From positions 62,001-126,000 of the forward strand of contig NZ_JAHXDN010000007.1 of assembly GCF_019375555.1 (NCBI RefSeq): a stretch of DNA of 64,000 nucleotides, written 5' to 3'. A program made the position numbers and the translations under genes. Below the pieces are notes generated by a model. That model did no database searches, was not told the DNA's origin, and saw nothing but the letters and a program-made list of their open reading frames with translations. The stretch comes from Roseobacter insulae (GTDB lineage: Bacteria; Pseudomonadota; Alphaproteobacteria; Rhodobacterales; Rhodobacteraceae). Position 1 is the first letter of the stretch. Every line of letters starts with the position of its first letter. Of the stretch, positions 52,920 through 64,000 are shown piece after piece.

Positions 52920-54245
52920 ATGGCTGCATGCGTTTTCGACAGCCCGCTTTATGCGCAGCTGTTTCCCACGGGTGAGACCGGACGATTGTTCAGTGACAGC
53001 GCCAGCATACGCGCGATGCTGCTGGTCGAAGGCGCTTTGGCCAAGGCGCAGGGACAGCTGGGCGTAATCCCCGAAACCAGCGCGGCCGCCATTCACCGCG
53101 CGACGCTGGAAATCCAGATCGATCCCGGCGCACTGGCCGAGGCCACGGGTGAAAACGGCGTGAGTGTGCCGGGCATGCTGGCCGCCTTCCGGGCGGAAAT
53201 GAACGCGCCCGAACACGCACAATATCTGCACTGGGGCGCGACCTCTCAGGACATTATCGATACCGGGCTGATGCTGCGGTTGCGTCAGGCGCTGGTTCTC
53301 GCCGAAACTGACATTCGGCAAATTCTCACACGCCTGTCAGAACAGGCGGACAAGCACGCGGAACTGCCGATGCCCGCACGCACCTACAGCCAGCAGGCGA
53401 CGCCAACAAGCTGGGGCGCGGTGCTGGCGGGCTGGGGCGCGCCATTGCTGGACGCGCTTGACGCCCTGCCCGCGCTGCGCGCGCAAAACCTGTGGGTCTC
53501 TCTGTCCGGGGCAGCGGGCACAGCCTCTGCCCTCGGGGCCGATGTTCCCGCGTTGCGCGCGGCTTTCGCCGAAGGCCTCGGGCTGCGGGATCCTGCCCGG
53601 TCGTGGCACACCGACCGCGGTCCGGTCTTGCGCATCGCGGGCTGGATGTCCGGGATTGCCGCGACCCTTGGTGGCATGGGCAGCACTCTGACCGGCATGG
53701 CCGCCACTGAAGTTCACGAAGTCTCACTGGGGCGCGCGGGTGCGTCATCGACGATGCCGCAAAAGCAAAACCCAATCAGGCCGTCGGCGCTCATCGCTCT
53801 TTCGCATCAGATGGCCGGGTTAACAGCCACCTTGCAGGCTGCGGGCAGTCATCAATACCAGCGCGACGGCGCCGCGTGGTTCACCGAATGGATGGTCGTG
53901 CCGCAAATCGCCCTGACATGTGCTGCATCCTTGCAGCACGCGGTGGCGTTGTCTCGCTCCCTGCGTCCCGACGCCGCCTGGATGGCGCGCACGCTGGACC
54001 AGGGTCTGGGGTTGATTTACGCCGAAGCGTTGAGTTTCGCGCTTGCCGAACGGATGCCCCGCCCGGAAGCGCAACAGACCACCAAGGCACTGTGCGGCGA
54101 CGCGGTATCGACCGGGCGACCCTTGCCCGAGATCGCGAGGGAGCGTTATCCGGATTTACCGCCCTCCCTCTTCCGGTCTGCGGCTCAACTTGGTCAGGCA
54201 CCGCAGGACGCGCGGCGGTTCGCAGCCCGCGTTCGGGCCCTCTGA
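52920..54245 (+). CDS. pcaB: 3-carboxy-cis,cis-muconate cycloisomerase
   Basis: Fumarase/aspartase-superfamily lactonising enzyme of protocatechuate catabolism, 441 residues. The superfamily signature GASSTMPQKQNPI and the HWGATSQDIIDTGLML block identify PcaB-type cycloisomerases. Followed by an MFS gene after 3 bp. Together with pcaD it covers two consecutive steps only, so the rest of the pathway must be encoded elsewhere. Confidence 0.9.
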   Translation: MAACVFDSPLYAQLFPTGETGRLFSDSASIRAMLLVEGALAKAQGQLGVIPETSAAAIHRATLEIQIDPGALAEATGENGVSVPGMLAAFRAEMNAPEHAQYLHWGATSQDIIDTGLMLRLRQALVLAETDIRQILTRLSEQADKHAELPMPARTYSQQATPTSWGAVLAGWGAPLLDALDALPALRAQNLWVSLSGAAGTASALGADVPALRAAFAEGLGLRDPARSWHTDRGPVLRIAGWMSGIAATLGGMGSTLTGMAATEVHEVSLGRAGASSTMPQKQNPIRPSALIALSHQMAGLTATLQAAGSHQYQRDGAAWFTEWMVVPQIALTCAASLQHAVALSRSLRPDAAWMARTLDQGLGLIYAEALSFALAERMPRPEAQQTTKALCGDAVSTGRPLPEIARERYPDLPPSLFRSAAQLGQAPQDARRFAARVRAL

Positions 54246-54248
54246 CGC

Positions 54249-55466
54249 ATGCGGCCAGCGGTCCTGTTCATCCTTGTAACCGTAACGCTGGATTCGATGG
54301 GCATTGGCCTGATCATTCCGGTCATGCCCGATCTGATACAGGAGGTTCAGGGCACGGGATTGAGCAAGGCGGCGCTGTGGGGTGGCGTTCTGTCCACCAG
54401 CTTTGCGGTCATGCAGTTCCTCTTCGGTCCGATCATCGGCGGGCTGTCAGACCGGTATGGGCGACGGCCTGTATTGCTGGTGTCCCTCGTGGTCATGGCA
54501 CTGGATTACCTGGTGATGGCGGTTGCAGGCAGCATTTTCTTGTTGCTTGCCGGTCGCATCGTCGGCGGGATCACGGCCGCCACCCAATCCACCGCGAACG
54601 CCTACATGGCGGATATCTCCGGCCCCGAGGATCGCGCTGCAAATTTTGGCCTGATCGGTGCGGCCTTCGGGATCGGTTTCGTTCTGGGCCCCCTGCTTGG
54701 CGGCCTGCTGGCAGAATATGGCACGCGCGCGCCCTTCTATGCCGCGGCCGTTCTGGCGGCGCTCAATGCCGTTTTCGGCTACTTTGTGCTGCGCGAGACC
54801 GTCACCGATGCTATTCGCCGCCCCTTCCGCTGGTCGCGCGCCAACCCGCTGGGCAGCGTGCGCCAGCTCAGCAGCCTGCCGGGCGTCGGGCCCTTGCTGG
54901 CTGTCTATTTCCTCTATCAGGTCGCCTTCATGGTCTATCCGGCTGTCTGGTCGTTCTTCGGCAAGGAGCGGTTTGGATGGGACCCCGCCACCATCGGTCT
55001 CAGCCTTGCGCTGTTCGGCGTCATGATGGCAATCGTCCAGGGCGGCCTGATCCGTTGGGTTTTGCGACTTCTTGGGGAGCGCGGTACCGTTCTTTATGGG
55101 CACGTCTTTGATATCGCAGCCTTTCTGGCACTGGCGTTCGTCACCAGCGGCACCGTCGCATTGATCCTTACCCCGCTGGCCGCACTGGCCGCCGTGATCA
55201 CGCCTGCGCTGCAGGGCATTATGTCAAAGGCGGTCGGTCAGGATGCACAGGGCGAGTTGCAGGGCGCGCTGACCTCTGCCACTGCCCTGGCGATGATCCT
55301 GTCGCCGATGATGATGACAAGCGTATTCGCGAGCTTCACCGCGGATGCGGCGCCACTGTACCTGCCAGGTGCCCCCTTCATCCTGTCAGCGGTCCTGATG
55401 GCCCTGGGACTGATTGTATTTCTCGGTTTCAAACCGGCGGCGGATACCGTGGAAAAAGCGGGATAA
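54249..55466 (+). CDS. MFS transporter, TetA-like (TCR/Tet family)
   Basis: A 405-residue 12-helix major facilitator. The N-terminal [16 protein letters not shown] and the loop motif [15 protein letters not shown] are typical of the TCR/Tet drug:H+ antiporter branch, but many such roseobacter proteins transport metabolites. It begins 3 bp after pcaB and is likely the last gene of that operon. Resistance should not be inferred. Confidence 0.86.
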
Positions 55467-55571: not shown

Positions 55572-56663
55572 ATGCAAACCATTAAAGCCGCCGTGTGCCA
55601 TGCCTTTGGCGCACCATTGCAAATCGAACAAATTCAACTGAGGGGCCCGCACCAGGGCGAAGTCGAGGTGACCTTGGGTGCGGTGGCAATATGCCATTCC
55701 GACATCTCCTATGCCGAGGGCGCATGGGGCGGGTCGTTGCCGGCCGTATACGGACACGAGGCCGCCGGTGTGGTCAGCAAGGTTGGCGACGCGGTCCGCG
55801 GCCTTGCCGAAGGGGACAGTGTGGTTGTCACCCTGATCCGCGCCTGTGGAACCTGCGGCAACTGTGCGGGCGGCAAACCAACGTTGTGCGAAACACCCTA
55901 TGACGGCGATCACGGACCCATCAAAACCAGCGATGGCGGCAAGCTGCATCAGGCGATGGCCACGGGCGGCTTCGCTGAAAAAGTGGTTGTCGATCAAAAT
56001 CAGGTGGTCCGGATCAGCCCGGACATCCCGAAAGACGCAGCCTCCCTGATCGCTTGCGGTGTGATCACCGGGGTCGGGGCCGTGGTCAACGCCGCCCGGT
56101 TGCGGGCGGGTCAGGACGTTGTTGTCATCGGTGCCGGTGGCGTCGGCCTGAATGCCATTCAGGGTGCGCGGATCGCGGGCGCGCGCCGGATCGTCGCGGT
56201 GGACATGAGCACGGAGAAACTGGAAACCGCCAAGGAATTCGGCGCAACGGATGGTGTGCTGGCAACCGGTGACAAGCCGTGGAAAGCTGCTATCGCCGCC
56301 ATGGGTGGGCGGGGTGCTGACGCGGTGATCGTCACCGTCGGGGCAATTCCCGCCTATGATCGGGCGCCCCGGTATCTCGGGTATGGCGGCAGGGTTGTCA
56401 TGGTCGGCATGCCGCATTCCGGCGCCGAATCGACGTATGAGCCGGTCATTCTCGCCGCCGTCGGTCAGGGCATGGTCGGTTCAAAAATGGGTGACGTGGT
56501 GATCCAGCGCGACATTCCGTGGATGGTAGACCTTTACACGCAGGGCCGTCTGAAACTCGACGAGCTGATTTCCGGCCGCTGGAGTCTGGATGAGATCAAC
56601 GAGGCTATTGCCGACACCAAATCCGGGGCGGCCCGGCGCAACGTCATCGTTTTCGACCGGTAG
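55572..56663 (+). CDS. Zinc-dependent alcohol dehydrogenase
   Basis: Medium-chain dehydrogenase, 363 residues. Catalytic zinc ligands: Cys in AICHSD, the His-Glu of YGHEAAG; structural zinc Cys cluster in ACGTCGNCAGGKPTLC; NAD-binding VIGAGGVGLNAIQ. The closest general pattern is class III/zinc alcohol dehydrogenases. ATG 55572 starts the homology; the ribosome site is weak. It is followed after 55 bp by the enolase-superfamily gene, suggesting one sugar-acid or alcohol pathway. Confidence 0.87.
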   Translation: MQTIKAAVCHAFGAPLQIEQIQLRGPHQGEVEVTLGAVAICHSDISYAEGAWGGSLPAVYGHEAAGVVSKVGDAVRGLAEGDSVVVTLIRACGTCGNCAGGKPTLCETPYDGDHGPIKTSDGGKLHQAMATGGFAEKVVVDQNQVVRISPDIPKDAASLIACGVITGVGAVVNAARLRAGQDVVVIGAGGVGLNAIQGARIAGARRIVAVDMSTEKLETAKEFGATDGVLATGDKPWKAAIAAMGGRGADAVIVTVGAIPAYDRAPRYLGYGGRVVMVGMPHSGAESTYEPVILAAVGQGMVGSKMGDVVIQRDIPWMVDLYTQGRLKLDELISGRWSLDEINEAIADTKSGAARRNVIVFDR

Positions 56664-56718
56664 CGAGAAGGACCCTCAGTGGGGAGAGCACACCCCCAAA
56701 GGCTGAAAGGACATAGCG

Positions 56719-57951
56719 ATGAAGCTCGCGGATTTGGATATCGTGGTCACCGCACCGCCTGCACCCGGGTGGGGCGGCCGCTACTGGATTCTCGTCAAGC
56801 TCACGACCGATGACGGTATCACCGGATGGGGAGAATGCTATGCGTCCTCCATCGGACCCGAGGCCATGCGCGCGGTGATCGAAGACGTGTTTTCCCGACA
56901 CATGGCGGGTGAGAACCCCGAAAACATCGAAAAGATGTTCCGCCGCACCTATTCATCCGGCTTCACGCAGCGGCCGGATCTGACGGTTATGGGCGCGTTT
57001 TCCGGGCTTGAGATCGCCTGCTGGGACATTCTTGGCAAAGCCCGAAACCGCCCGGTGTGGGCCTTGCTTGGCGGGCGTATGAATGAGCGTATCCGGGCCT
57101 ACACCTACCTCTATCCCCTGCCCCGGCATGACATGACGGCCTTCTGGACTTCACCGGATCTCGCCGCGGAAAGCGCCTCTGCGATGGTGGCAAAGGGGTA
57201 CACAGCCGTCAAGTTTGACCCCGCCGGTCCCTACACCCTGCGCGGTGGCCATATGCCCGCGATGAGCGATATTTCCCAATCCGTCGCCTTCTGCAAAGCC
57301 ATTCGCGCCGCGGTGGGTGACAGGGCCGACCTGCTGTTCGGCACCCACGGGCAATTCACCACCGCGGGTGCAATTCGGCTGGGACAGGCGTTGGAACCCT
57401 ATTCACCCCTGTGGTTCGAAGAACCCATACCGCCGGATTCAATCGAGGAGATGGCCAAGGTCGCGCGCAGCGTGCGCATTCCCGTCGCAACCGGCGAGCG
57501 GCTGACCACGAAGGCTGAATTCGCACCGGTGCTGCGGGCCGGGGCCGCAACGATCCTGCAACCCGCCCTGGGGCGCGCGGGCGGCATCTGGGAGATGAAG
57601 AAGGTGGCAGCCATGGCGGAAGTCTACAATGCGCAGATGGCCCCGCATCTCTACGCGGGCCCGGTAGAGTGGGCCGCGAATGTGCACCTTGCCGCCTCGA
57701 TCCCCAACCTGTTGATGGCAGAGACGATTGAGACGCCCTTCCACGACGCGCTGATCAAAGGCAGCATTCGCGTCGAAGACGGGTTCATCATTCCACCGGA
57801 GGCGCCCGGCCTCGGAATCGACGTGGATGAAACACTGGCGCGCGCGCATCCCTACCATGGCGACAATCTGCATCTCGAAATGCAGGAAGCGCCATGTGAC
57901 TACGTTAACGGCAATGCCTTTGAGGGCGGCGCGCCTGCGCCGAAGGACTGA
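56719..57951 (+). CDS. Enolase-superfamily mandelate racemase/muconate lactonising enzyme-type protein
   Basis: A 410-residue barrel enzyme that abstracts the alpha-proton of a carboxylate with Mg2+. Barrel metal ligands lie in FEEPIPP and ATGERLTT; the N-terminal capping domain includes ITGWGECYAS. These resemble sugar-acid dehydratases and galactarolactone cycloisomerases, but specificity cannot be assigned. AAAGGAC precedes ATG 56719. It converges with the RraA gene (8 bp between stops). Confidence 0.85.
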   Translation: MKLADLDIVVTAPPAPGWGGRYWILVKLTTDDGITGWGECYASSIGPEAMRAVIEDVFSRHMAGENPENIEKMFRRTYSSGFTQRPDLTVMGAFSGLEIACWDILGKARNRPVWALLGGRMNERIRAYTYLYPLPRHDMTAFWTSPDLAAESASAMVAKGYTAVKFDPAGPYTLRGGHMPAMSDISQSVAFCKAIRAAVGDRADLLFGTHGQFTTAGAIRLGQALEPYSPLWFEEPIPPDSIEEMAKVARSVRIPVATGERLTTKAEFAPVLRAGAATILQPALGRAGGIWEMKKVAAMAEVYNAQMAPHLYAGPVEWAANVHLAASIPNLLMAETIETPFHDALIKGSIRVEDGFIIPPEAPGLGIDVDETLARAHPYHGDNLHLEMQEAPCDYVNGNAFEGGAPAPKD

Positions 57952-57959
57952 TGCGCCGG

Positions 57960-58655
57960 TCAGGTGCGGGCGGCTTCAAACGCCGCCCACGCCGCTTCGA
58001 ACTGCTCAAAATCGATGCGTTTGTCTTTGACAGCGTCAAACACGATCTTTTCTGATCGGACAAGCTGGGCGATGGCGTCGGCCAGCCGCGGAACGACATC
58101 CTCCGGGATGACCACCCCACCGTGCCTGTCCGCATGCACCAAGGCACCCGGTGCGACGGGCAGGCCGCAGATATCCACGGGCAGGCCGTAGTCGATAACA
58201 TGCACAAAACTATGGCTGGGGCCGACCGACCCGGCCACGACCGGGAAGCCCTCCGGCAGATCCCCAAGATCGCGCATCACGCCATCGGTCAGCGCACCAG
58301 ACAGGCCAAACGCCTTGTGGATGTTGGTATTGACTTCGCCCCAATACGCCCCGATGGCATTGGGCGCATCCATGTCCTGCACAACGGCCACGGCAGGCCG
58401 CGGCCCTTCGGACATGTACTTGTAATAGGCCATGCGGCGCGCCCTCACGACTTCTGGCGAGTCGCTGGGCGGATGCACGGCCTGAATGCGGGCGGTGCGC
58501 GCATACCCGACGATTGCCGGGGACTGCGGTGCAGAGCACAGCATCGTACCGCGCGTGAAATCATCAAATCCCCGTTTGCCCTGCGCCACTTCGATTGCGT
58601 TGCAGACGGTGGGCGTGTCCACACTGCGCAACAGTGCCAAAAGATCGCTGTCCAT
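57960..58655 (-). CDS. RraA-family aldolase-like protein
   Basis: A 231-residue member of the RraA/HMG aldolase family, which splits 4-hydroxy-4-methyl-2-oxoglutarate-type compounds to pyruvate. The DG-x-RD metal motif is seen as TDGVMRDLGDLP, followed by a PVAPGALVHADRHGGVVIP segment, both conserved in class II pyruvate aldolases. Its ATG shares a base with the preceding gene's stop (TGATG). Last gene of the minus-strand operon; probably the C-C cleavage step. Confidence 0.82.
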   Translation of the reverse strand: MDSDLLALLRSVDTPTVCNAIEVAQGKRGFDDFTRGTMLCSAPQSPAIVGYARTARIQAVHPPSDSPEVVRARRMAYYKYMSEGPRPAVAVVQDMDAPNAIGAYWGEVNTNIHKAFGLSGALTDGVMRDLGDLPEGFPVVAGSVGPSHSFVHVIDYGLPVDICGLPVAPGALVHADRHGGVVIPEDVVPRLADAIAQLVRSEKIVFDAVKDKRIDFEQFEAAWAAFEAART

Positions 58656-59782
58656 CACCGCGCCCCCGCCAGCCTGGCGCCTTCGGCGAGGGCTTCGAGC
58701 TTGGCAAAGGCGATCTCGGGATCCACCGCGCCAAAGCCCGCGAAGGTGCCGAAACCACAATCCGAGCCTGCAATCACCCGGTCCGCGCCAACAATCCCGG
58801 CAAAGCGGTCAATCCGCTGGGCCACGAGTTCCGGGTGCTCGACAAAGTTGGTTGTCGTATCAACCACACCCGGCACCAGAACCTTGGTGTCGGGAATACC
58901 AGCCTTGCGGTCGCGGAACACCGTCCATTCATGCGCATGGCGCGGGTTGGACGTTTCAAACAGAACATACCGGGCCTTGGCCGACATCAAGGTATCGAAC
59001 ACCTTGTCCATGCCGATGTCGCAGATATGCGGCCCTTCATAATTGCCCCAGCAGATGTGAATGCGCACCCGGTCCTCGGGCACGTCTTGCAGGGCATGGT
59101 TGAGCGCTTCCACATGAGCGCCCGCCACGTTCAGGAACTCCGCATCACTGAGATCGTTGAACAGCATGTGCCGTGACAACGCGAGATCAGGGCAATCAAG
59201 CTGTACATCAAGCCCTGCCGCGACGATGGTCTGATATTCCTCCCGCATCGCATCGGCCAGGGCGGCCAGGTAAGCTTCCCGCGTCTTGTAGAAATCGTTC
59301 TGCAGGAACAACGAGATCACACCCGGGCTTGCGGCATTCATGAACCCCCGTTCCGCGCCGTGCTGCGCCATCGCGGCTTTCAGATTGTCGATATCCTGCT
59401 GCAGCTCGCCCTGCCCCTTGGATGTCACCTCTCCGGTACACATGGGCCGTGCGTATTTTGGCGTCCCGCCATCCTCGGCCAACCGCTTGAGAAAGCTGGG
59501 AAACTTCCTGAGGTCCGCCGGCGCATTGCGCGGGCTGTCGCCGGAGAACCCGGTGTAGCGGTCCTTGACATATGTGGCGTAGGAAATCTTGGAGGTCTCG
59601 CCGTCGCTGACAATGCCGATACCAGCGGCGACCTGCCTCGCCACCGTATCCGACACCGCTTCGGACATCGCCGTGTCAAAGGCCGCCTTGTCGTAGGGTT
59701 CTTCCCGTTCACGCGCGAAAATAAAATCAACGACTTTCTGGCTCCGCGGCAGGCTGCCGACATGTGTGGTGTCGATACTCAT
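58655..59782 (-). CDS. Cobalamin-independent methionine synthase (MetE)-like methyltransferase
   Basis: A 375-residue single-barrel protein similar to the catalytic C-terminal half of MetE. The folate/substrate-side HVGSLPRS is at the N-terminus; zinc ligands His and Cys are in VRIHICWGN and a Cys is in GSDCGFGTF, so the metal site looks intact. Stand-alone forms of this size usually are not methionine synthases and are found in catabolic clusters. A methyl-transfer or demethylation step on the pathway substrate is plausible (inference). Overlaps cupin and RraA genes. Confidence 0.82.
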   Translation of the reverse strand: MSIDTTHVGSLPRSQKVVDFIFAREREEPYDKAAFDTAMSEAVSDTVARQVAAGIGIVSDGETSKISYATYVKDRYTGFSGDSPRNAPADLRKFPSFLKRLAEDGGTPKYARPMCTGEVTSKGQGELQQDIDNLKAAMAQHGAERGFMNAASPGVISLFLQNDFYKTREAYLAALADAMREEYQTIVAAGLDVQLDCPDLALSRHMLFNDLSDAEFLNVAGAHVEALNHALQDVPEDRVRIHICWGNYEGPHICDIGMDKVFDTLMSAKARYVLFETSNPRHAHEWTVFRDRKAGIPDTKVLVPGVVDTTTNFVEHPELVAQRIDRFAGIVGADRVIAGSDCGFGTFAGFGAVDPEIAFAKLEALAEGARLAGAR

Positions 59783-60747
59783 GTGCCGCTCCATGTTGCG
59801 CCTGCAGGATCACCCGTCGCCACGATATGGAACAACGAAGCTTCACCGGTCATGGCGGGCACGGCTGTATGCATCAGCCCGGCAGGCACAGAGGCCGTGT
59901 CACCGGGGTTCAAAGTCGCTTCTCCGCCGTCCCATTTCAGTTTCCAATGGCCTTTCATCGGCATCAGAACCGACGGCCGGTCATGCTGGTGCATATCCGC
60001 CGATGACGAGTCGCGCGTCAGAAAACCGACCTCGAACCCCGGTTTGTCGCGAATAATGCCCTTTTCACCGATCACAAGGCAGGGCGTTTTCTGGGCCATG
60101 GCGACCATGTCGTAATACCGCCGTACGCCGAACCCCACCACCTGCATCGGGGACAGTTCCGGATAGGCCTTCAGCTCCTCCTCCGTAAGCAGCGGCATCG
60201 GGCCTATACCCTCCGGCAAGCTTTCACCCTTCTTGCTGTCATAGAGTTTCCCGTTCGCCCCGAGGATCAACCCATGGTCCTTGGCATCCCCGATCACTTG
60301 CGGCGCCCAGATGACACCGCCCCCTGCATCGTCGCCGCCAAGGATCGCCATGATCATCCCGTAGTCTGTCCCGATGTTCTCGAAGCCACGGAAAATGCCC
60401 GTGGGGATGTTGATGATGTCGCCCTCTTCCAGGATAACTTCACCGGCGGTTCCCCATCGGCCCCAGAAAAACCGCCAGCGCCCCTTGAGAACAAAAAACA
60501 CTTCGGCCGTACGGTGGCTGTGCAGCGAATTTCGGCACTTTGGCGGCTGGCCCGCCGCGCCGATGTTAAAGCCGTGCGGAAGGTTGATGTGGACATGCTG
60601 ATCAGGGCTTTCTGAAACCCCGCCCCCGATGATGGTAAAGTTCTCCTTCTGATCGCTCCCGGGCGTGTGCGCATCGATGAAGGCCGTTTTACACGGTTTC
60701 AGATCACCGTATCGGACAATGCGGGTTTCCATTTCGGCTGGGATCAT
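59779..60747 (-). CDS. Bicupin protein
   Basis: A 322-residue two-cupin protein. Domain 1 (about 60-150) has the metal motif NSLHSHRTAEVFFVLKG and a PTGIFRGF second motif; domain 2 (about 245-315) has SADMHQHDRPSVLMPMKGHW. Such proteins include dioxygenases and isomerases of the gentisate and sugar type. ATG 60747 follows AGGAGAC and overlaps the 90-aa gene stop; its own stop overlaps the MetE-like ATG. The enzyme reaction cannot be assigned. Confidence 0.82.
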   Translation of the reverse strand: MIPAEMETRIVRYGDLKPCKTAFIDAHTPGSDQKENFTIIGGGVSESPDQHVHINLPHGFNIGAAGQPPKCRNSLHSHRTAEVFFVLKGRWRFFWGRWGTAGEVILEEGDIINIPTGIFRGFENIGTDYGMIMAILGGDDAGGGVIWAPQVIGDAKDHGLILGANGKLYDSKKGESLPEGIGPMPLLTEEELKAYPELSPMQVVGFGVRRYYDMVAMAQKTPCLVIGEKGIIRDKPGFEVGFLTRDSSSADMHQHDRPSVLMPMKGHWKLKWDGGEATLNPGDTASVPAGLMHTAVPAMTGEASLFHIVATGDPAGATWSGT

Positions 60748-61016
60748 TGGTCTGTCTCCTTTTGGTCAGCCTCTGGATTTTGCGCAATGTCGAGCAGTGC
60801 ATCGGCCAATACGATCATATCAGCCGGGTCCATCCGCTGATATTGTACGGACGCCCATCCGGAGCTTATTCGAAGATAGAAACGCTTGTCGTCACCATCA
60901 CCACGCTGCTGCACTTTGATGTTACCACCTGTCACAGGCACAAGTCGTTCCCGCACCGGAGAGGAGAAGCTATCGAAGAAACCTCTTGAGGTGGAGTAGT
61001 TAAACTGAATATGCAT
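60744..61016 (-). CDS. Unrecognised 90-aa protein in the catabolic operon
   Basis: No family recognised. It has no signal peptide or membrane segment. The chain reads as a short beta-rich domain (MHIQFNYSTSRGFFDSF; IKVQQRGDGDDKRFYLRI) with an acidic helical end (ADMIVLADALLDIAQN). ATG 61016 is preceded by GGAGAG, and its stop overlaps the cupin ATG (ATGA), both arguing that it is translated. Could be a subunit or cofactor-binding partner of the cupin enzyme (speculative). Confidence 0.6.
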   Translation of the reverse strand: MHIQFNYSTSRGFFDSFSSPVRERLVPVTGGNIKVQQRGDGDDKRFYLRISSGWASVQYQRMDPADMIVLADALLDIAQNPEADQKETDQ

Positions 61017-61077
61017 TTTGTACTCTCCAGAATTTTAAAGGCCATCTCTCAGATTGAGGGTAGTCCCAATCATCGAC

Positions 61078-62046
61078 CTATCCTGTTTGCAGCAGGATCT
61101 GTTTCCAGATCGTGGTCTCATCAAAGATGACATATTCGCGGCGCAGCCCCCAAGGACCGAATTCAGCGTGGCTGATCCCCAAAAGGTAAACCTCCGCGCC
61201 CGTCGGCGCCCCGAACCGCCCCCATCCGGAGTGTTTGCCATGCAGCGACCAGCGCAGCGCGGCCCGCGGTGGCATCATCGGATCGTCGCGCCCGATCTGG
61301 TGGTCGATCTGGAAGGTCGCATCCGGGAAAGACGCCCGCAGGCCCATCCAGAACTGGTCGACATCGCCGTGGCTGTGGCCGGTCACGCCGCCGGGGTACT
61401 CCACGTGGCAGGCACGGTCATATTCCACGGGGATTGCCGCCATATCCGCCCCCATGACCCGGGTGAGGATATCGGCATATCTGGCGCCCCATTCATTATC
61501 ATTGCCCCGACCTTTGTAGGGACCGGGCTGATCCGTCGCCGGGCTGAGCGGTTTGGTGCAGACCTCTGGCCCGCCTTCGCGCACGATCAGATCGGCGGCG
61601 TAGTCTTTCGGATCCACGCCCAGCTGGCGCACAATGGCCCCCTGATCCCGGATCAGCCATTCATCATTGATCTGGTTGTTGATGGCGTGGCAATCGGCGA
61701 GGATCCGGTAGGTCAGTTTCTTGCCCGTGGCCGCGCCGTAAACCCCATCATACATATGAGTCGCCGTACTGAGCAAACGGTGTGAAGACAGCATCCCCTC
61801 CTCCGGTGTGCCCGACCAGATCACATCCTCCCCCAAAAGCGTCCTGTCTGGGAATTCCGCCAGCGTGGCCATGGTGGCCCCGATCACGTTCTGATTGCCG
61901 ATCACTACAGAGGCGGGCGAGCGAACCACGATGTCTTCGGAATAATACTGATGCAGGGTCGCGATACCGCGATCTTCCCAGATCTCCCTTGTGATGCCGA
62001 TGATGTAATCGGGGAAATCCTTGAACTTGGGATCGAAGCCTTTCAT
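61078..62046 (-). CDS. SnoaL-like (NTF2-fold) protein with two domains
   Basis: A 322-residue protein with two SnoaL/ester-cyclase-like domains (about 20-160 and 170-315); the second includes HVEYPGGVTGHSHGDVDQFWMGLRASFPDA, a typical SnoaL helix-strand block. SnoaL-fold enzymes act as cyclases, isomerases or hydrolases on small ring compounds. It starts 6 bp after LacI on the same strand. A second SnoaL-like gene lies at the window's right end. Confidence 0.78.
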   Translation of the reverse strand: MKGFDPKFKDFPDYIIGITREIWEDRGIATLHQYYSEDIVVRSPASVVIGNQNVIGATMATLAEFPDRTLLGEDVIWSGTPEEGMLSSHRLLSTATHMYDGVYGAATGKKLTYRILADCHAINNQINDEWLIRDQGAIVRQLGVDPKDYAADLIVREGGPEVCTKPLSPATDQPGPYKGRGNDNEWGARYADILTRVMGADMAAIPVEYDRACHVEYPGGVTGHSHGDVDQFWMGLRASFPDATFQIDHQIGRDDPMMPPRAALRWSLHGKHSGWGRFGAPTGAEVYLLGISHAEFGPWGLRREYVIFDETTIWKQILLQTG

Positions 62047-62052
62047 GGCGGG

Positions 62053-63060
62053 TTATTCCTCAGGTTTGCGGGCCGAGCCGCGGATAATCAAAGGGCCGTC
62101 AAGGGTGATACTGCGCGGTGCTTCATCTTCCTGCGTGAGGCGTGCAAGCAAAGCATCAACCGTGGCGGCAACCATGCGGTTGGCGGGTTGGCGGACCGTC
62201 GTAAGATTGTAGCTTGGCCAGTGAGACAGCGTCACATCATCGTATCCCACGACCGAGACGTCGTCGGGCACCCGCAGACCCAGTTCGTACCGCAGCACGT
62301 CCATCACGGCGAAAGCCATGTGGTCGTTGGCCACGAAAACGGCATCAGGGTGGTCGCTTCCACTGAACATTTCGCGGGCCGCTGCCTGGGCGGTTTCAAA
62401 GTTGAAGTTGCCGACGCCGCGCGCAAACAACGACAGCCCCGCAGCCTCCAGCCCGGCCCTGAAACCGGCTTCGCGATCAATCTGGGTCGAGGCGTCCTCC
62501 CATCCGGCGATATGCGCGATCCGCCTGTGCCCACCGGCAATCAGGAAGTCAGCCAGTTTGCGCCCCCCCGCGACATTGTCCGAGGTCACGCTGGTCAGGC
62601 GCGCATCGTATTGATGACGGTTAAAAAGCACGATCGGAATGCCCAGGTCCTCGCATCTTTTTGTCAGATCGTTGGACAGGCCGACAGAGGCCGCAATAAT
62701 CGCGTCCACCTGATAATCCAGCAGTTCATCTATCACGGATTGCGTGGCGTCGTGATCGTTGGAAGCCATGAAAACCAATACATGGTACCCCTGAACCTGC
62801 AGCGCATTGGACAATCGTTCGATCGCTTCGGGGTAGAATTGGTTTTCCAGGTAGGCCACCACCAGACCGATGATGCGGCTGCGCCCGGTGATCAGGGAGC
62901 GCGCCAGCACATTGGGACGATAGCCCAGGGCGGCAGCGGCCTTGCGGACCTTCTCCGCCGTGCCTTTACTCACCGACGCGCCGGGCGTGAACACACGGCT
63001 GACCGCCGACCGGCTGACACCCGCCTTTTCGGCCACTTCGAGAGATGTCACTTTGCCCAT
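62053..63060 (-). CDS. LacI-family transcriptional regulator
   Basis: A 335-residue regulator. Helix-turn-helix at residues 5-25 (TSLEVAEKAGVSRSAVSRVF), hinge near RPNVLARSL, and a periplasmic-binding-protein-like effector domain (60-325) with VANDHMAFAVMDVLR and SVVGYDDVTLS. LacI proteins of this kind usually sense a sugar or sugar acid. It overlaps the SDR stop by one base and sits inside the operon it probably controls; operator candidates lie outside the window or at 55469-55485. Confidence 0.9.
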   Translation of the reverse strand: MGKVTSLEVAEKAGVSRSAVSRVFTPGASVSKGTAEKVRKAAAALGYRPNVLARSLITGRSRIIGLVVAYLENQFYPEAIERLSNALQVQGYHVLVFMASNDHDATQSVIDELLDYQVDAIIAASVGLSNDLTKRCEDLGIPIVLFNRHQYDARLTSVTSDNVAGGRKLADFLIAGGHRRIAHIAGWEDASTQIDREAGFRAGLEAAGLSLFARGVGNFNFETAQAAAREMFSGSDHPDAVFVANDHMAFAVMDVLRYELGLRVPDDVSVVGYDDVTLSHWPSYNLTTVRQPANRMVAATVDALLARLTQEDEAPRSITLDGPLIIRGSARKPEE

Positions 63061-63818
63061 CAGCCCGCAGTCCACCCGCCATCGATCATCATCGAGGTTC
63101 CGGTGATCATGGCCGAGGCATCGGAGGCAAGAAACAAGGCGGCGCCCATGATGTCCTCGACCTCGCCCACGCGCGGCAGCTTGATCTTTTCCATGATCCA
63201 CGCAAGCCGTTCTGGGTTGTCAAAAGTCACCGCCGACAGGGGTGTACGGATGAACGTCGGGCAAATCGTGTTGATCCGAATACCGGATTTGCCCCATTCG
63301 ATCGCCATGGATTTCACCATGCCTTCAAGCGCATGTTTGGACGCACAATAAACCGCCCGATCAATGCCCCCGACATGTCCCATCTGGCTGGAGATATGAA
63401 TGATCGAGCCGGGCAAACCCGCCGCCATCAGCGCCCTGGCCGCCTGTGCGGACAGAAAATAGGCACCCCGCAGATTCAGGTTCATCACCGCGTCGAAATC
63501 AGCGGGCGTTGTCTCGACCGCCGGGGAATGCCGTGCGAGCCCTGCCGAATTGATCACGATGTCGAAGGGCGCGTCAAACACATCCGGCAGCGCATCTGGA
63601 TTGCTCTGATCCAGCGGCATCGCCTCGGCGGACCAGCCTTCTGCTGCCATGGCGTTCACCGACGCCTGCAGCACGTCCACGCGACGGGCGGCGCAAACCA
63701 CATGCGCGCCAGCCTCTGCCAGCGCCACCGCGCATCCAAGGCCAATACCGGAAGACGCCCCCGTCACGAGGGCGCGTTTGCCAGACAGGTCGAAGCTCGG
63801 CGTTCTTGGCAGTTGCAC
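63060..63818 (-). CDS. Short-chain dehydrogenase/reductase
   Basis: A 252-residue NAD(P)-dependent oxidoreductase. The cofactor loop is TGASSGIGLG, the NAG-like motif is NSAGLA and the catalytic YxxxK is YCASKHALEG with an upstream Ser. GTG at 63818 shares a base with the previous gene's TAG stop (TAGTG). Probably oxidises a hydroxyl group of the pathway substrate. Confidence 0.88.
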   Translation of the reverse strand: MQLPRTPSFDLSGKRALVTGASSGIGLGCAVALAEAGAHVVCAARRVDVLQASVNAMAAEGWSAEAMPLDQSNPDALPDVFDAPFDIVINSAGLARHSPAVETTPADFDAVMNLNLRGAYFLSAQAARALMAAGLPGSIIHISSQMGHVGGIDRAVYCASKHALEGMVKSMAIEWGKSGIRINTICPTFIRTPLSAVTFDNPERLAWIMEKIKLPRVGEVEDIMGAALFLASDASAMITGTSMMIDGGWTAG

Positions 63819-64000
63819 TACAAGGCTACTCCTGTTTCCGGGTCAAACCCCGCGCGGGCCTTGTTGAATTCCCGCAAGCGGGCAAAAACATCCACCCCGA
63901 TCTGATCATACATGTGCAGCAAGTCGACCAACACCCAGTTTTCCCGGATCAGCCCGTTTTCCACCCGCCAGAAATCGAGACTGCGCATGTCAATTCTCTT
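63818..64000 (-). CDS. SnoaL-like protein (5' end outside window)
   Basis: Only the last 60 codons are present, reading from the right edge to the TAG at 63820-63818. They include RSLDFWRVENGLIRENWVLV and the tail ARAGFDPETGVAL, a pattern typical of the C-terminus of SnoaL/ester-cyclase-like proteins. It is the second such protein in the cluster. Its stop overlaps the SDR start, so it belongs to the same operon. Confidence 0.75.
   Translation of the reverse strand, partial: KRIDMRSLDFWRVENGLIRENWVLVDLLHMYDQIGVDVFARLREFNKARAGFDPETGVAL

Follow-up and report, generated by a model that had tools for sequence, protein, structure and literature searches.

Which compound is taken up and broken down by the packed genes at the end of this stretch of Roseobacter insulae DNA? 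The window (the whole stretch analysed, 64,000 nucleotides, positions 62001-126000 of a contig in a 4.88 Mb genome) stops inside a run of minus-strand genes for an RraA-like aldolase, a MetE-like zinc protein, a bicupin, two SnoaL proteins, a LacI repressor and a short-chain dehydrogenase/reductase (SDR). They are the downstream part of a block of about 13 genes. This block is a genuine module, conserved in many relatives, with an importer and a palindrome of its own. From its gene content a tentative case, with a probability of roughly 0.36, can be made that the LacI-controlled module serves the catabolism of mycosporines and mycosporine-like amino acids (MAAs).

A first-pass annotation of the window described eight minus-strand genes joined by overlaps of 1-4 bases or short gaps. 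All of the open reading frames (ORFs) are present; on re-measurement five junctions are overlaps (1, 4, 4, 1 and 1 bases) and two are gaps, 61 and 6 bases wide. Each of the families named for them (RraA, MetE-like, bicupin, two SnoaLs, LacI, SDR) is backed by Pfam, and both SnoaL proteins of the window prove to be two-domain proteins. Upstream contig DNA past the window edge was also read, and with the whole contig at hand the block can be traced beyond the window end. A sugar-type ATP-binding cassette (ABC) importer lies upstream in the same block. The thirteen genes, with widest intergenic gaps of 166 and 130 bases, would form one transcript. One 90-residue ORF may not be a gene; its status is doubtful because it has no match in Pfam or NCBIfam and none in any of 80 relatives' loci. 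Beyond the earlier account are the HisD-like enzyme, the ABC importer, more SnoaLs, an alpha/beta hydrolase in relatives, and versions of the cluster free of MetE or of the cupin.

Conservation was followed in two sets of loci and one set of genomes. The first set comprises 46 loci from genomes of the family and from plasmid records. Most share the order ATPase, substrate-binding protein (SBP), permeases, SnoaL1C, HisD, SnoaL2B, SDR, LacI, SnoaL2A, bicupin, MetE, alpha/beta hydrolase, RraA, with local losses and swaps. The order is absent from six loci that have only distant MetE relatives (L038, L060-L064), and four loci hold only fragments of the module (L066, L067, L071, L079). The second set comprises the best 80 of at least 575 loci encoding MetE-like relatives, so that MetE is present in 80/80 by selection; its counts are lower bounds because some loci end at contig ends or at the 10 kb flank. 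SnoaL2A is found in 80/80, SDR and bicupin each in 79/80, LacI in 78/80, SnoaL2B in 77/80, HisD in 76/80, RraA and SnoaL1C each in 69/80, the alpha/beta hydrolase in 54/80 and a S-adenosylmethionine-dependent methyltransferase in 25/80, and at least one importer gene occurs in 71/80. Requiring at least 45% identity leaves these counts as they were, except that of the hydrolase. Homologues thus stay together in relatives, the opposite of the scatter named beforehand as the result that would speak against a pathway.

The convergent zinc alcohol dehydrogenase (ADH) and enolase genes, which the first-pass annotation had regarded as possible feeders of the pathway, served as an internal control. 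The enolase adjoins the module in 15/80 loci and the ADH in 14/80, against 69-80/80 for the other core genes. At genome level the tie is weak: of 248 genomes sampled across the family, one for each genus, 176 contain the enolase, 81/101 with the MetE-like gene and 95/147 without it (p=0.01). Because related genomes are not independent, p-values from this set overstate the associations. On this distribution both genes were rejected as pathway members, and the pair is a lineage-specific neighbour. What stands of the earlier substrate idea is a catabolic module that is conserved and contains a LacI gene; its substrate is plausibly a small O-methylated ring compound bearing oxygen, with an aldolase as the last step.

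In the same 248 genomes the MetE-like gene is present in 101 at E<=1e-30 (in G109, G229 and G153 the sole match is a relative of 47-51% identity, and in G164 it is a fragment), the bicupin in 102 and SnoaL2A in 105, and all three occur together in 89. MetE and bicupin are found jointly in 92 genomes, MetE only in 9, bicupin only in 10 and neither in 137 (odds ratio 140). The two genes co-occur even when unlinked: they lie on separate contigs or far apart in 19 of the 92 genomes, some of which contig breaks may account for.

The palindrome TTGCAnACGTnTGCAA, derived from the regions upstream of the ATPase and HisD genes, occurs exactly in 39 of the 248 genomes, and the reversed control gave 0 in each. 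The MetE-like gene is carried by 36 of the 39 and at least one of three module genes by 38, the exception being G232. Among 17 further site loci (L254-L270), 14 have the site at module importer, SnoaL2D or amidohydrolase genes and one at HisD; the sites of L261 and L270 lie elsewhere. The R. insulae genome holds one exact site of this form, between the ATPase and SnoaL2D genes; a scan allowing one mismatch gave 10 sites with one mismatch and two other exact sites. The palindrome is the predicted operator to which the block's LacI would bind. The two other sites are identical palindromes, TTGCAACCGGTTGCAA, that nearly match the block's own; they stand at an inositol-type locus elsewhere in the genome (L271 on contig C12, positions 6131 and 10447), which carries another LacI protein, 37% identical to that of the block.

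Mycosporines and MAAs are sunscreens of algae, cyanobacteria and fungi. Mycosporines are built on a 5-hydroxy-5-hydroxymethyl-2-methoxy-cyclohexenone to which amino acids are attached, and those of fungi carry glutamine or glutaminol. The available part of a review (PMC3083659) reports that Vibrio harveyi hydrolyses shinorine and porphyra-334 and describes bacterial formation of 4-deoxygadusol, the deaminated core being called a beta-diketone. In the scheme proposed here the sugar-type ABC system would import the compound, and the SnoaLs would hydrolyse its C-N (imine or enaminone) bonds, giving free amino acids and 4-deoxygadusol, a cyclic beta-diketone. The CH2OH of 4-deoxygadusol, next to the tertiary OH, would then be oxidised to COOH by the HisD-like enzyme in a four-electron step with NAD. 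With O2 the cupin would cut the C2-C3 bond, beside the methoxy carbon, to yield what a carbon count by hand assigns as the 1-methyl ester of 4-carboxy-4-hydroxy-2-oxoadipate. Demethylation would then release methanol through the alpha/beta hydrolase, or pass the methyl through the MetE-like protein to homocysteine to give methionine. As the last step, RraA would split the demethylated product by retro-aldol cleavage into pyruvate and oxaloacetate. The two ways of losing the same methyl are in line with a MetE-only window lineage and hydrolase-only relatives, of which there are several. The window locus has the MetE-like protein and lacks the hydrolase. In this it follows the pattern of the 80 loci, where the hydrolase is present in 0/15 enolase-bearing loci and, next to MetE, in 54/65 of the others. 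The scheme is consistent, not proved.

Instead, the module may break down some other cyclic polyol or sugar acid that is O-methylated, a methyl-inositol or a methylated sugar lactone for example, along a route that is oxidative and non-phosphorylative; this is a possible though not a likely reading. A sugar-type importer and a LacI regulator point that way, and the PDB relatives of the SBP are sugar binders, including SmoF (sulfoquinovosyl glycerol). The SDR is closest to KduD and gluconate dehydrogenases, its best NCBIfam model being KduD, below the cut-off. Lactonase-like neighbours (amidohydrolase_2, SMP-30) would then belong to the pathway; genes of either kind adjoin the divergent SnoaL in some relatives, and the palindrome is found at two amidohydrolase loci as well as resembling the two sites at the inositol-type locus. 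No sugar kinase or isomerase is seen in the annotated clusters, however, the enolase-type dehydratase is not tied to the module, and no part in sugar pathways is known for several SnoaLs, a bicupin or a second HisD with an amidase.

The MetE-like protein is a zinc-intact single-barrel protein, as first described: the ligands H242, C244, E276 and C342 do not vary among 22 sequences with identities as low as 38%, nor do the homocysteine residues S10, E62 and D196 (Ser433, Glu484 and Asp599 in E. coli). A motif-level check of the zinc and homocysteine residues in 136 sequences found the Glu pattern in 135; a Q-x-D-C-P-D signature is present in 133. With 375 residues and one barrel, it lacks the N-terminal folate-binding barrel (TIGR01371 20.1 bits, cut-off 929.95). 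Aligned with one full-length MetE sequence, the window protein has a phenylalanine at the place of a tryptophan, a difference that alone does not exclude folate. MesD and the other core methionine synthases likewise have a single MetE barrel and no folate domain, and they keep the zinc ligands and the Ser/Glu/Asp homocysteine residues named in the available part of Price 2021 (PMC7857596). The window protein differs from them in being only 23% identical to the MesD of V. pelagius, in its Q-x-D-C-P-D signature and in sitting in a catabolic operon.

The conserved zinc and homocysteine residues could mean that the protein is simply a core methionine synthase for general supply, whose methyl donor comes from elsewhere and whose place in the operon is incidental. 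Such a role has been proposed for the P. inhibens gene PGA1_c27430, and in some genomes (L071, L079) the gene lies apart from the rest of the module. A general role is nonetheless unlikely in view of the genome-level tie to the bicupin and SnoaL2A, which holds even when the genes are unlinked, and of the low identity to a MesD. Methionine synthesis has five further candidates, loci of the S-methyl_trans family. MesX, the partner that together with high identity to ACIAD3523 marks a MesD, has no match in the R. insulae genome, a weak negative since the control genomes gave no match either. PGA1_c27430, core-MetE-like, was deleted in a 2025 study; the knockout is viable, and the gene is dispensable for lag shortening driven by dimethylsulfoniopropionate. 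In the part of the paper available, this 'Mes-like' gene is handled as a lone putative methionine synthase, without mention of an operon (PMC12366255). The knockout primers given there encode AFIDAH, a peptide of this bicupin, upstream and IGAYWG, a peptide of this RraA, downstream, and PGA1_c27430 is therefore the orthologue in this gene order.

Alternatively, the MetE-like protein might add a zinc-activated thiol to an electrophilic intermediate with no methyl transfer at all. Epoxyalkane:coenzyme M transferase, of the same superfamily and with the same zinc site, adds a zinc-activated thiol to an electrophile, and SDRs accompany it in epoxide pathways as one does here. That chemistry is improbable for the module, in which S10, E62 and D196, binding the amino and carboxyl groups of homocysteine, are conserved and no monooxygenase is seen.

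MetE-like genes also occur in other surroundings. In sphingomonads (L038 13038-26655; L082 12001-21260) the gene is paired with an NTF2-like gene and an IclR gene, near aminomethyltransferase-type, methylenetetrahydrofolate reductase, PurU and FolD genes, a one-carbon and perhaps O-demethylation setting. Dietzia and Rhodococcus plasmids (L083 9986-14335; L090 9986-14348) carry a 47-48% identical gene in a different cluster, with a 2-oxoglutarate oxygenase, a phytanoyl-CoA-dioxygenase-like gene and an HD-domain gene. Five SnoaLs stand beside the MetE-like gene of Halobellus limi, the sole such case among five haloarchaeal contexts.

The HisD-like enzyme shares with HpsN and HisD the family, the zinc site, the Glu-His pair and the Asp. 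The motifs G-Q-A-E-H-G and G-D-K-V-I-G-T-N-H are found in 124/124 orthologues and E-H in 123/124. Substrate selection is where it departs from both: HpsN has G-R-Y-A/S-H and HisD G-S-A-P-L in the available part of the source (PMC11382572), and here the motif is G-K-F-P-M (123/124) or G-K-F-P-L (1/124). The protein scores above the TIGR00069 cut-off and lacks G-S-A-P-L, and its own motif marks it as a third substrate class. A sulfonate (dihydroxypropanesulfonate) pathway, which its best PDB match (HpsN, E=1.6e-114) might suggest, is very improbable and fails the motif test, G-R-Y-A/S-H and the sulfonate-binding His126 being absent in 124/124 orthologues, and no sulfite-releasing enzyme is seen in the annotated clusters.

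In the bicupin H76, H78 and E82 are invariant and the N-terminal HxHxxxE is present in 122/123 sequences. The metal site of the second cupin is not conserved, and a Deinococcus cupin of 219 residues matches residues 6-168 only; the first cupin is for these reasons probably the active one. A Foldseek search places quercetin dioxygenases first, followed by MncA and oxalate decarboxylase, at template-modelling scores of about 0.5-0.55. The end of the protocatechuate 4,5-cleavage and gallate pathways, where a LigK-type aldolase of the RraA family follows a ring-opening dioxygenase, is a close parallel to the mycosporine scheme. The proposed route differs in having a bicupin in place of LigAB, HisD and SnoaL steps, and an aldolase with E-X20-RD, present in 94/94 distinct orthologues examined, in place of D-X20-RD. 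The SnoaL2A model (predicted local distance difference test score 96) matches the folds of IdmH and SnoaL2; sequence matches of the SnoaLs and the cupin in the PDB are weak and gave no substrate. The relatives' alpha/beta hydrolase has G-L-S-M-G in 94/96.

Variant clusters may point to the substrate. A remote version is found on two plasmids of Deinococcus, one of them from coastal dune soil, and in a Pantoea from a leaf; its first HisD is 62-70% identical (Deinococcus sp. QL22, Pantoea) and its cupin 38-39%. An HpcH/HpaI-type aldolase (by Pfam in Pantoea, by annotation in Deinococcus and Novosphingobium) replaces RraA, and the remote version also gains another HisD together with an amidase or C-N hydrolase. 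This swap beside the same HisD or cupin is as expected for a 4-hydroxy-2-oxo acid. The Novosphingobium cluster has the cupin, one HisD of the second type, an amidase and the aldolase; Sinorhizobium has an amidase, and a single HisD is seen in the stretches of both. Most of the clusters that add an amidase or C-N hydrolase have the extra HisD too, and these enzymes would act on the glutamine or glutaminol part of fungal mycosporines. A clean land/sea split of this variant was dropped, as amidase and two HisDs also occur in marine Martelella and Alloyangia and in L217, L219, L225 and L226, whose habitat is not known. Vibrio pelagius plasmids have only the importer and four SnoaLs, near sarcosine oxidase and PurU, with an L-serine ammonia-lyase in one strain; in V. 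europaeus a double SnoaL lies downstream of a major facilitator superfamily (MFS) gene, divergent from a symporter and an L-serine ammonia-lyase. Paracoccus, Roseibium, Sinorhizobium, Martelella and Alloyangia have clusters that share the HisD, the cupin or both, and no MetE-like gene was found in the stretches of them that were read. L198-L203, L205, L209 and L214 gave no bicupin.

Single loci show further arrangements. In the cupin-free L202 (13410-17087) a fumarylacetoacetate-hydrolase-family gene and an apparent formate-tetrahydrofolate ligase gene come after the MetE-like gene. Dipeptidase-like and flavin-mononucleotide-binding-like genes occupy the usual bicupin place between SnoaL2A and MetE in L206 (5235-9159). 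The bicupin of L231 (9923-14255) lies outside the module, directly upstream of apparent betaine aldehyde and choline dehydrogenase genes, and other module-free bicupins (L230, L234) have unrelated neighbours.

Several points weigh against mycosporines as the substrate. The scheme has no step for the SDR, and no single step is proved unique to MAAs. The usual fourth metal histidine of the bicupin is R120 and its fold match is moderate; RraA has E-X20-RD where the CHA/HMG aldolases of its family are expected to have D-X20-R-D, and scores 26 against 304.5 bits with the LigK model. MetE-free and bicupin-free clusters mean that neither gene is indispensable to the locus, and the MetE-like relatives of sphingomonads, Rhodococcus, Dietzia and four of the five haloarchaea stand in other contexts. 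The land/sea contrast is not clean because the variant also turns up in Martelella and Alloyangia, which are marine, and in the four family genomes named above, and the serine-lyase and sarcosine-oxidase neighbours in Vibrio may belong to glycine-betaine metabolism. We know of no report of P. inhibens, which bears the module, as an MAA user.

Table 1. Features of the block, in window numbering; the window ends at 64000.
Feature	Position	Strand	Details
RraA-like aldolase	57960..58655	-	231 aa; Pfam RraA-like 6.4e-16
MetE-like single-barrel zinc protein	58655..59782	-	375 aa; Pfam Meth_synt_2 2.4e-12
Bicupin	59779..60747	-	322 aa; Pfam Cupin_2
90-aa ORF, doubtful gene	60744..61016	-	No Pfam or NCBIfam match
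SnoaL2A, two-domain SnoaL/NTF2-fold	61078..62046	-	322 aa; Pfam SnoaL and SnoaL_2 in both halves
LacI-family repressor	62053..63060	-	335 aa; Pfam LacI; predicted operator TTGCAnACGTnTGCAA
SDR dehydrogenase, sugar-acid type	63060..63818	-	252 aa, GTG start; Pfam adh_short_C2
SnoaL2B, two-domain SnoaL	63818..64864	-	348 aa; window ends inside gene
HisD-like dehydrogenase	64925-66253	-	442 aa; beyond window
SnoaL1C, single SnoaL	66266-66796	-	Beyond window
ABC permeases, two	66924-68081 and 68081-69106	-	Beyond window
ABC binding protein (SBP)	69237-70457	-	Beyond window
MalK-type ABC ATPase	70541-71596	-	Beyond window
Predicted LacI operator at block head	71677-71692		Between ATPase and SnoaL2D
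SnoaL2D, double SnoaL			Divergent from block; upstream of predicted operator, beyond window

The convergent zinc ADH and MR/MLE enolase occupy positions 55572-57951 of the window; the enolase is at most 87% identical in the family, and the nearest PDB entries are 3rcy and 3t4w. Adjoining the ADH, at 52920-55466, are a 3-carboxymuconate cycloisomerase-like gene and then an MFS transporter, probably a separate aromatic pathway to judge from their sequences. Beyond the window (L004:707-4309) a fused alpha/beta ketoacid-dehydrogenase E1-like gene and an acyl-CoA dehydrogenase-like gene flank the block, and the E1-like gene recurs in four loci.

The first-pass annotation knew of no described pathway with this gene set, and none was found among the matches listed in the open-access literature searched. 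Within the same scope the function of the module is undescribed and no genes of a mycosporine catabolic pathway were found; a published pathway may have been missed. It is doubtful, though conceivable, that the module is the first genetic route by which mycosporines are broken down completely, common to marine roseobacters and soil and leaf bacteria, and that its MetE-like protein is a novel demethylase that needs neither folate nor cobalamin and hands the methyl directly to homocysteine as methionine. The module handles something common, since the MetE-like gene is so widespread, in about two fifths of the 248 family genomes and, among the matches listed, in HTCC2255, Planktomarina and Amylibacter records. 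A knockout of the MetE-like orthologue already exists in the model strain P. inhibens. If MAAs are the substrate, the module would account for the fate of a widespread algal pool of nitrogen and carbon and provide marker genes for it; if they are not, it is still an unassigned pathway under strong conservation, and its zinc protein, from a MetE subfamily without an assigned role, can be put to the test.

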